Assembly (NCBI GenBank): GCA_007125165.1
Contig: SLDV01000111.1
Span: 1 to 43,675 of the forward strand
DNA: 43,675 nucleotides
Reading direction: 5' to 3'
Source of the DNA: Geobacteraceae bacterium
Lineage (GTDB): Bacteria > Desulfobacterota > Desulfuromonadia > Desulfuromonadales > Geopsychrobacteraceae
Shown here: piece after piece, positions 4,478-20,700 of the stretch
How the letters are laid out: each line of letters starts with the position of its first letter
Numbering within the stretch: the stretch's first letter is position 1
Program-made: the position numbers and the translations under genes
Notes under the pieces: model-generated
Database searches by the model: none
Told to the model about the DNA's origin: nothing
The model's input: only the letters and a program-made list of their open reading frames with translations

Positions 4478-4501
4478 AAACTTTTCCTGATTAGCGACCC
4501 A

Positions 4502-4522
4502 CGCCCCTCGGGGCGAATTTTC
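4502..4522 (+). terminator. Putative weak intrinsic terminator after the DUF523/DUF1722 gene
   Basis: CGCCC-ctcg-GGGCG followed by aatttt, 25 nt after the stop at 4477. Confidence 0.4.
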
Positions 4523-4590
4523 ATAAAGCAACTTCTATTTCCAAAGAATGTGATTTCAGGTAGTTGCCTTGTAGTTACTCAGAAGAACTG

Positions 4591-4695
4591 ATCTTCCGTA
4601 GATGCCATCTTATCCCCTCTCCCTGAGGGAGAGGGCCAGGGGGAGGGGGGCTTTCAGCCACCTTCTCACTCAGGAGAAGGGTTCAAGCGGAAGAT
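4591..4695 (+). repeat. Intergenic repeat copy 2 of 3, with TIR-like ends ATCTTCCG...CGGAAGAT
   Basis: atcttccgtagatgcca...ccctctccctgagggagagggccagggggaggggggctttcagccaccttctcactcaggagaagggttcaagcggaagat. Confidence 0.75.
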
Positions 4696-18313: not shown

Positions 18314-18406
18314 ATGAGACTGTTGTTTGCTAATCTGCTGGCCTGGGTGACCGGGGTGCTCATTGTGGTAATGGTAGTGCTGTTTGCCTGGCTGCAGAAC
18401 GGCTGA
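18314..18406 (+). CDS. Possible small single-TM protein (30 aa)
   Basis: RBS-like ggaggagcaactggATG; MRLLFANLLAWVTGVLIVVMVVLFAWLQNG; ends 4 nt before the amrS start. Confidence 0.5.
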   Translation: MRLLFANLLAWVTGVLIVVMVVLFAWLQNG

Positions 18407-18410
18407 TGCG

Positions 18411-19430
18411 ATGATAGAGGCCCGACTCTACAACAAGCGCTCAAACAACCAGGTCGCCTGCCGTCTGTGTGCCCACTTTTGTGTGATCAATAATGGTGAA
18501 CGTGGTCGGTGCGGTGTGCGCGAAAACCGTCATGGCACCCTCTATTCTCTGGTCTACGGTCACACCATCGCCAGCCATATTGATCCCATCGAGAAAAAAC
18601 CCCTGTATCACTTTTATCCCGGCAGCCGTTCTTTTTCCATTGCTACTCCCGGTTGCAACATGCACTGTCACTGGTGCCAGAATGCCGGGATATCCCAGAT
18701 TCCCCATAATCTTCAGTTTCCTGTCGGCGATGCCATGTCACCGGAGCAGGTTGTCGTAGCTGCGCAACAGAGCGGCAGTCACTCCATTGCTTACACCTAC
18801 ACCGAACCGACCATCTTTTTTGAATATAGCCTCGACACCGCCCGCCGCGCCGCCGCGGCCGGGGTCGCCAATGTCTATGTCAGCAACGGTTACATGACGG
18901 CTGAGATGTTGGAGATGGTTCACCCGTACCTTGGTGCCGCTAACATCGACCTGAAGTCCTTTCGCGACCCGACCTATCGCAAATATGCCGGAGCCCGGTT
19001 GCAGCCGGTTCTTGACAGCCTGAAAAGACTCCACCATTTCGGTATCTGGCTCGAAGTCACCACCCTGATCATTCCGGGAATCAATGATGATCCGCAGGAG
19101 CTTAAAGAACTCGCTGAATTTATCGTTACCGAACTGGGCGCCGACACCCCCTGGCATGTCAGCCGTTTCTATCCCCAATATAAACTTCAGAATCTGCCCC
19201 CAACCCCGCCGGCCTCCATCAACCAGGCAGTGGACATCGCCCGAGCCGCCGGGCTGAATTATATCTACGTCGGTAACCTGGGTGTTGATTGCGATACCAG
19301 TTGTCCCGGTTGTGGAATTGTCCTGATCCAGCGGCGGGGCTACAGTATTAGAAGCAACCGGATTAATCCGGACAGTTGTTGCCCCGACTGCGGACATCAG
19401 ATTGTCGGTGTGGGGATGGGGGGAAAATAG
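18411..19430 (+). CDS. amrS: AmmeMemoRadiSam-system radical SAM enzyme (AmrS)
   Basis: MIEARLYNKRSNNQVACRLCAHFCVINNGERGRCGVRENRHGTLYSLVYG...EKKPLYHFYPGSRSFSIATPGCNMHCHWCQNAGISQ...YTYTEPTIFFEY. Confidence 0.9.
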   Translation: MIEARLYNKRSNNQVACRLCAHFCVINNGERGRCGVRENRHGTLYSLVYGHTIASHIDPIEKKPLYHFYPGSRSFSIATPGCNMHCHWCQNAGISQIPHNLQFPVGDAMSPEQVVVAAQQSGSHSIAYTYTEPTIFFEYSLDTARRAAAAGVANVYVSNGYMTAEMLEMVHPYLGAANIDLKSFRDPTYRKYAGARLQPVLDSLKRLHHFGIWLEVTTLIIPGINDDPQELKELAEFIVTELGADTPWHVSRFYPQYKLQNLPPTPPASINQAVDIARAAGLNYIYVGNLGVDCDTSCPGCGIVLIQRRGYSIRSNRINPDSCCPDCGHQIVGVGMGGK

Positions 19431-19479
19431 AGGGACATAAAACCGATTAATCTAATCGGTTTTATGTCCCTCTATTTTC
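19423..19479. repeat. Palindrome copy A: 27-bp perfect arms, 3-nt centre
   Basis: gaaaatagagggacataaaaccgatta-atc-taatcggttttatgtccctctattttc; arms exactly complementary. Contains the amrS stop (TAG 19428-19430). Confidence 0.95.
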
Positions 19480-19495
19480 AAGGCGTCAGCAAGAA

Positions 19496-20377
19496 ATGGT
19501 AAATTTTGGTACGACATTTGTCGCACTTGCGGCACTATGCTGGGGACTCTCAGGCGGGATCGGCGGCATTCTCACGGGGCAGGGGTGGGATCCGGTTGTC
19601 GTGTCGTTCTACCGGGGTGCGATCGGGCTGTTGTTTGTTCTCGTCTGGCTGGTGTTGCGACCACAGGGCAGTGGACTGGCAAGTCGCCGCTTATGGTTCT
19701 GGTCGGCCATTGCCGGTCTCGGGGTTGCCGGAAACTTCTCATTCTATTTTATCAGCATTGCCGAGGGCAGTGTCGCAGTCGCGGCGACCTTGATGTATTG
19801 CGCCCCGGTGTTCGTCTATCTCGTATCCTTCACGCTCAAGCTTGAAAGTCCCTCTTTGTTCAAGTGGGTGGCGATCGCAATGGTCATGCTTGGAGTTGTA
19901 CTGCTGACAGGTATTTACGATATTGGAGCAGGTGAGGTTACGCCGCTTGCCGCCGGTGCCGGGTTGCTTTCCGGCCTGTCCTATGCGGTATTTATTTTCG
20001 GCTTCAAGTATGCTGCCCCGCACGGCAGCCCACAGGCGATTCTGGTGATAGCGTTTGCGGTGCTTGCCACGATACTTTTCGGGCTGGGTGATGGCGAACA
20101 GACCGTAGCCGTGCTGACAACACCGAGCTGGCCATTGTTCGTGGTGCTGGGAGTGGTTGGCGCCGGATTGTCGTTCATTGTCTATATCATCGGTTTGACC
20201 CGTACCGCTCCGGCGGTGGCCTCCATTGTGGCGATGGTTGAGCCGGTCACTGCTTCGCTATTCGGCGTTGTGATTTTAAATGAAAGTCTGGTTGATCTAC
20301 AGATCTTCGGCATGGGATTGATTTTGGCCACGGTTACTGCGCTGAGCGTATATTCGGGGGGAAATAGGGGGACATAA
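19496..20377 (+). CDS. EamA/DMT-superfamily transporter
   Basis: TM-rich protein MVNFGTTFVALAALCWGLSGGIGGIL...VVVSFYRGAIGLLFVLVWLVLR...AAVAATLMYCAPVFVYLVSF-type region...ASIVAMVEPVTASLFGVVILNESL. Confidence 0.92.
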   Translation: MVNFGTTFVALAALCWGLSGGIGGILTGQGWDPVVVSFYRGAIGLLFVLVWLVLRPQGSGLASRRLWFWSAIAGLGVAGNFSFYFISIAEGSVAVAATLMYCAPVFVYLVSFTLKLESPSLFKWVAIAMVMLGVVLLTGIYDIGAGEVTPLAAGAGLLSGLSYAVFIFGFKYAAPHGSPQAILVIAFAVLATILFGLGDGEQTVAVLTTPSWPLFVVLGVVGAGLSFIVYIIGLTRTAPAVASIVAMVEPVTASLFGVVILNESLVDLQIFGMGLILATVTALSVYSGGNRGT

Positions 20378-20415
20378 TACCGATTAATTTAATCGGTATT
20401 ATGTCCCCCTATTTC
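20361..20415. repeat. Palindrome copy B: 27-bp perfect arms, 1-nt centre
   Basis: gaaatagggggacataataccgattaa-t-ttaatcggtattatgtccccctatttc; arms exactly complementary. Contains the EamA-gene stop (TAA 20375-20377). Confidence 0.95.
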
Positions 20416-20700
20416 TCACCTATTTCTCATATATTCGTCCCACTCCAGCGGTAGCAGATCCTTCTTGTTGTTGTTGCATTCCTTACACGCCGGCACGCAG
20501 TTGCCCCTGGAGCTACGGCCGCCGCGAGTGATGGGAAGGATATGATCAAGGGTGAGTTCTTTGGGAGGGAATGTGCGTTGGCAATAATGGCAGATACCGG
20601 TGGCGATGCGGTTTTTCCACCACCCTTGTTTGCGCAGTTCACGCGCTTTATCGCGTTCACGGCGAATCTGTTGTTCATCGATATCGAGAAAAAAATCCAC
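20416..20700 (-). CDS. HNH endonuclease family protein
   Basis: GICHYCQRTFPPKELTLDHILPITRGGRSSRGNCVPACKECNNNKKDLLP: CxxC...DHI...N...CxxC HNH signature. Confidence 0.92.
   Translation of the reverse strand: MDFFLDIDEQQIRRERDKARELRKQGWWKNRIATGICHYCQRTFPPKELTLDHILPITRGGRSSRGNCVPACKECNNNKKDLLPLEWDEYMRNR

Follow-up and report, generated by a model that had tools for sequence, protein, structure and literature searches.

Perfect palindromes in a Desulfuromonadales genome as probable gene-less relatives of a TnpAY1 transposon, with arms apparently matched by template switching

Two perfect palindromes, A and B, lie 0.9 kb apart in the window, the 43,675-nt stretch of DNA analysed here. At a probability of roughly 0.7, we interpret them from sequence comparison as gene-less, non-autonomous REPIN/MITE-like relatives of a TnpAY1 transposon, whose stems would be kept perfect by template switching from arm to arm. 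Compensated stems are usually taken as proof of selection on structure. The orthologous sites compared for this family include perfect, decayed and flipped hairpins as well as sites with none, a range that points towards a mutational cause. The family also offers a natural setting in which to test arm copying and to follow the spread and ageing of miniature hairpin elements.

The palindromes and the genes that adjoin them are arranged as follows:

18384..19430, + strand: AmmeMemoRadiSam system radical SAM gene (TIGR04337), the syntenic left neighbour
19423..19479, no strand assigned: palindrome A (arms 19423-19449 and 19453-19479, loop 19450-19452)
19496..20377, + strand: EamA transporter gene (PF00892), exactly bracketed by A and B
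20361..20415, no strand assigned: palindrome B (arms about 20361-20386 and 20390-20415)
20416..20700, - strand: HNH endonuclease gene (PF01844), the syntenic right neighbour

Palindrome A has 27-bp arms that are 100% complementary around a 3-nt loop, with a predicted DNA fold of -27.8 kcal/mol (z -15.5). Palindrome B can be read as 26 bp with a 3-nt loop or, counting the last A-T, as 27 bp with a 1-nt loop (predicted DNA fold, z -12.6). The original prediction of two perfect hairpins was borne out at these positions, the stem count of B being its sole footnote. It had also claimed that an A/G, an A/T and a one-base indel difference between the copies are each mirrored on both arms, and all three were seen. 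Stem position 9 is A.T in A (AGAGGG/CCCTCT) and G.C in B (AGGGGG/CCCCCT), position 19 is A.T in A (TAAAACC/GGTTTTA) and T.A in B (TAATACC/GGTATTA), and the outer A-run is one A longer in A (GAAAATAG) than in B (GAAATAG). The loops differ as well (C/T). The window holds four matches to the arm motif against a chance expectation of 0.06. When it was compared with Rfam, tRNAs alone reached the gathering score; miRNA matches on the A and B hairpins were sub-threshold and were rejected, because any perfect stem gives such chance matches.

The genome-wide search that had been proposed as a check revealed a dispersed family. Far from only two copies, this genome (2.64 Mb in 172 contigs; Desulfuromonadales, genus of Pelovirga) contains about 14 family hairpins plus single arms, with 23 exact 13-mer arms and 30 matches to the arm motif at up to 3 mismatches. 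Among the genomes searched, exact family arms number about 3 to 53 per genome. The exact two-arm pattern was found in 89 stretches of named genomes, belonging to Pelovirga terrestris, other Desulfuromonadales, Desulfofustis, Elusimicrobia, Omnitrophota, Aminicenantes, Acidobacteria and Hydrogenedentes, and further to SAR324, Syntrophus, Gamma- and Alphaproteobacteria and Dehalococcoidia; it had no exact match in viral contigs, and a reversed control pattern gave few or no matches. The family core, GGGACAYAATACC, recurs in Elusimicrobia, Omnitrophota, Aminicenantes, Acidobacteria, SAR324 and others; its constancy is partly imposed by the search pattern, which let the base that follows ACC vary, along with the loop and outer arms. 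Family copies differ in their loops and arms, and their outer sequence is either AAATNGG or locus-specific. The string GGGACACAATAC was not found in the literature searched. Target-site duplications are in general absent among the copies, direct repeats being present only at B (8 bp) and at the copy C88b (15 bp). The latter palindrome (own contig C88, near 2427-2468, L040) has the direct repeat TCTCGTCCGCAAACT, unlike other copies.

As the assembly comprises 172 contigs, several of which end in or near family repeats, chimeric inverted repeats could have arisen by sequencing, as an assembly or amplification artefact. We regard this as scarcely credible, since the same palindromes occur in the genome of a Pelovirga terrestris strain and in many independent assemblies, and occupy orthologous sites.

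In a set of 20 aligned copies from the genus, 97.9% of stem cells are paired (83.8% after shuffling), and 13 of the 25 stem pairs have changes on both sides. Doubly changed cells number 56, compared with 14.8 after shuffling; none of 500 shuffles was as high, a count that is not a probability because the alignment rows are related. A control that retains this relatedness, in which the partner is slid by one base, brings pairing below 49%. For the base after ACC, pairing in this genome is 1.00 within copies and 0.33 between copies, and along the outer arms, too, pairing within copies exceeds pairing between copies; in distant phyla, outer-arm pairing is weakly above background. The anticipated covariation of arms across family copies was therefore found. 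The companion expectation, that other copies would be free of uncompensated arm mismatches at a neutral rate, holds in part: such mismatches are present in some copies (for example C71, C73, C88b and C89b), yet they are far fewer than the differences between copies.

Strong arm covariation would also result from purifying selection on a functional hairpin, be it a terminator, an mRNA 3' end or a transposase substrate, which would remove broken stems and fix compensated double changes with no copying between arms. A and B stand directly 3' of stop codons, terminator-like sites were predicted at both by a scan, and REP-type hairpins are frequently located downstream of genes (PMC3733652); against this, the T-run after the A and B stems is weak. 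The orthologous sites weigh further against selection as the whole explanation, which we consider rather unlikely, although selection on the hairpin could contribute to the covariation.

Five orthologous sites could be compared with sister species, one of them (C73) being aligned on one flank alone. Site A is perfect in this genome (G000), shows arm mismatches in G003 (3) and in G002 (several), and has no palindrome in G001; the decay in two sisters speaks against selection on the hairpin. With G002, G003 and B as outgroups, A changed from G.C to A.T at position 9 and from T.A to A.T at position 19, in both cases on both arms. Neither G002 nor G003 has B as a second copy. The C71 site is empty in G003, and this genome and G002 share an insertion there whose tip is flipped: the left inner arm in one species is identical to the right inner arm in the other (loop TTC vs GAA). 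At C73, the loop is flipped between this genome and G001, and one pair is A.T in one and G.C in the other. The outer arms of C38 differ blockwise on both sides between this genome and G002, yet largely match within each. C89b lies within what remains of another repeat found across the genus: its left outer arm is the native sequence of that repeat, and its right outer arm is an inverted copy thereof. That the long outer arm of C89b is part of a travelling element was rejected, as no other exact copy exists in the four genomes. Extra tandem arms occur at C89c and C38.

The original prediction had offered either selection or arm copying. Arm copying is the better supported of the two, by the tip inversions, the block changes on both arms, the inverted copy of a native flank and the decay of site A in sisters. 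We favour template switching between the arms over purifying selection alone because it would predict flipped tips, blockwise arm changes, an inverted native flank and tandem arms, whereas selection alone predicts compensated pairs only. Arm homogenisation with spacer inversion is a described signature of template switching (PMC8604942; PMC8794818; PMC7202029). Pseudomonas REPINs also show compensatory changes, and the mechanism is not settled there (PMC3116915).

The same sites bear on another possibility, namely that each copy was recently inserted from a different, already perfect parent, so that the mirrored differences would be older than the insertions and call for no repair. Loops and arms do vary among copies, and sister species differ in their insertions, as the empty C71 site illustrates. 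However, site A is common to G002 and G003 and nevertheless shows paired changes in this genome; A and B have the same loop type at 0.9 kb from each other; flipped tips occupy the same insertion sites; and outer arms built from local flank cannot predate insertion. Recent insertion is accordingly a very unlikely source of the mirrored differences.

The preferred scheme, then, starts from a small parent transposon in which a gene for a TnpAY1 HUH tyrosine transposase lies between two inverted ends of about AAATNGGGGGACAYAATACCNATT each. In the palindromes, both ends would be joined and the gene missing, and the transposase would have spread such copies as single-stranded hairpins. Once resident, a hairpin may make the replicating polymerase switch template between its arms. 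Such a switch would rewrite one arm from the other, yielding perfect stems, and could also flip the loop, extend the palindrome into adjacent host DNA and produce tandem arms. With one arm repeatedly rewritten from the other, stems would stay perfect although their sequence changes; after duplication of one palindrome, A and B would have diverged by such paired changes.

A Y1_Tnp transposase with matching flanks had been suggested as a companion of the repeat. Such genes turned up in several phyla as well as in a sister species; in this genome the cognate gene is unassembled. In three Elusimicrobia genomes, open frames for Y1_Tnp sit between two family palindromes. Y1_Tnp loci were drawn by protein-family search alone from 17 genomes, themselves chosen because they bear the palindrome, and family arms were found near seven of these loci, in Elusimicrobia (two), Omnitrophota, SAR324, Aminicenantes, Acidobacteria and G003 of the same genus, with the closest arm at most about 100 bp from the gene. 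Given exact-arm counts of about 3 to 53 in each genome, well under one arm-adjacent Y1_Tnp gene is expected by chance, by rough estimate. Matches to PF01797 support the Y1_Tnp assignment. The arm-flanked proteins (218-247 aa) have the HUH motif NH[VIA]H, the motifs FQ/WQ and Y...NP, and a C-terminal tail, in which they share (R/K)TGRP...TGR. They cluster in a tree (2 changes vs 7.2 shuffled, 0/500), a pattern compatible with more than one origin. The family ties one transposase group to one repeat across many phyla.

Complete elements were recognised in G002, where inverted arms stand on both sides of a 247-codon frame, and in SAR324, also with inverted arms; further one- or two-sided cases occur elsewhere. 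Since inverted single arms flank HUH transposase genes, the palindromes may be understood as two terminal repeats fused in REPIN-like fashion, with the gene left out. In this genome, contig C96 begins inside the same element end as the G002 element, so the element seems to be present here with its gene unassembled. A protein-family search of this genome's assembly returned only non-cognate Y1_Tnp genes: those on C136 and C126 were rejected as the cognate transposase for having no palindrome nearby, and that on C147 because it carries a different REP-like repeat. The C147 gene (L031, 628-1320) is another RAYT, with its own repeat, GGGGACTGGCTCCG(C/A)AGGTGCCTGTCCCC, around and inside the gene. 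In Pelovirga terrestris, a Y1_Tnp gene (L100, 794-1192) has its 3' end cut off by a family palindrome.

Among known systems, the family fits the branch of TIR-associated tyrosine transposases better than canonical GTAG REP, as far as motifs and gene arrangement indicate. TIRtrons/TIRYT (Di Nocera 2013, PMC3733652) largely correspond to TnpAY1 subclass 2.1 (Quentin 2018, PMC6006769). Like them, the family has a tyrosine transposase gene with inverted repeats on either side that begin GGGGAC, the Y1 gene lying between inverted repeats in the G002 and SAR324 elements, and it has dispersed single and dimeric repeat copies in the genome. The motifs of subclass 2.1 (NHVH, FQ/WQ, Y..xNP, a C-terminal extension, about 238 aa) were compared with the family proteins by motif and length. 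Unlike in TIRtrons/TIRYT, a single core is spread here over many phyla and the dimers form perfect palindromes; moreover, the published motif GGGGWSAS is fitted by the C variant GGGGACAC only, GGGGACAT, the majority variant in the genus, deviating from it at the last base.

The assignment to a REP/REPIN-type element, made in the original prediction, stands for the two-unit hairpin and fails for canonical GTAG REP. As in REPINs/RAYTs (Bertels and Rainey 2011, PMC3116915), two inverted units form one hairpin, compensatory changes fall on both hairpin sides, and mobilisation would be by an HUH tyrosine transposase; the empty C71 site in G003 and the gene association make mobilisation by the cognate enzyme plausible. 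In contrast to REPINs, whose copy number is usually over 100, copies are in the tens rather than hundreds (23 exact arms here, at most about 53 elsewhere searched), with little or no spacer. The canonical REP foot GT[AG]G is missing from the family, and, unlike in canonical GTAG REP, a single unit forms no hairpin of its own: the half-element as its own hairpin was rejected, since pairing inside halves is no higher than in a position-by-position shuffle. The family resembles quasipalindrome template switching (PMC7202029, PMC8794818, PMC8604942) in its arm homogenisation, spacer inversion and TTC/GAA-type loop flip, homogenisation and spacer inversion both being found at orthologous inverted repeats. 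It differs from the known cases in that switching, as judged from the species comparison, apparently acts on a dispersed mobile repeat and extends into host flank. The kind of element thus appears to be already known, and what seems unusual is the clear mechanistic evidence, in the form of orthologous snapshots of arm rewriting.

At the locus itself, A contains the stop codon (TAG) of the upstream radical SAM gene, and the final codons and stop of the EamA frame come from the left arm of B. The coding sequence of the closest EamA homologue runs on where B starts, so that here B takes the place of the frame's end. G002 has one palindrome between the radical SAM and HNH genes, directly adjoining the latter; in this genome the same interval is occupied by A, the EamA gene and B. 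Among the other genomes searched from the host's taxonomic family, none yielded an EamA homologue at E <= 1e-60; homologues 80-83% identical are present in other families of the order, and the gene was probably acquired horizontally. The loop type of A and B is absent from this genome's other hairpins, which suggests that B probably arose by duplication of A at the time the transporter gene came to lie between the two. If so, the differences between A and B would have arisen after the duplication. A further reading, which we consider quite unlikely, is that the palindromes are ends carrying unrelated genes and that this same hairpin machinery imported or captured the transporter as a unit bracketed by palindromes; if true, a passenger gene can be moved by two ends that have no gene of their own.

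At several other copies (L035, L037, L038, L009 and L043, on own contigs C28, C73, C82, C88 and C100), one flank alone aligns in sister genomes or the flanks map apart, so that palindromes may often sit at borders of rearrangement or gene gain. Separately, a second repeat of about 100-140 bp, with CTTCTGAGTAACTnCAAGGCAACTACCTGAAATCACATTCTTTGGAAATAGAAGTTGCTTTATG..., was noticed at 4480-4640 of the window and on own contigs C77, C81 and C156; it has at least four copies in this genome and occurs in three sister genomes too.
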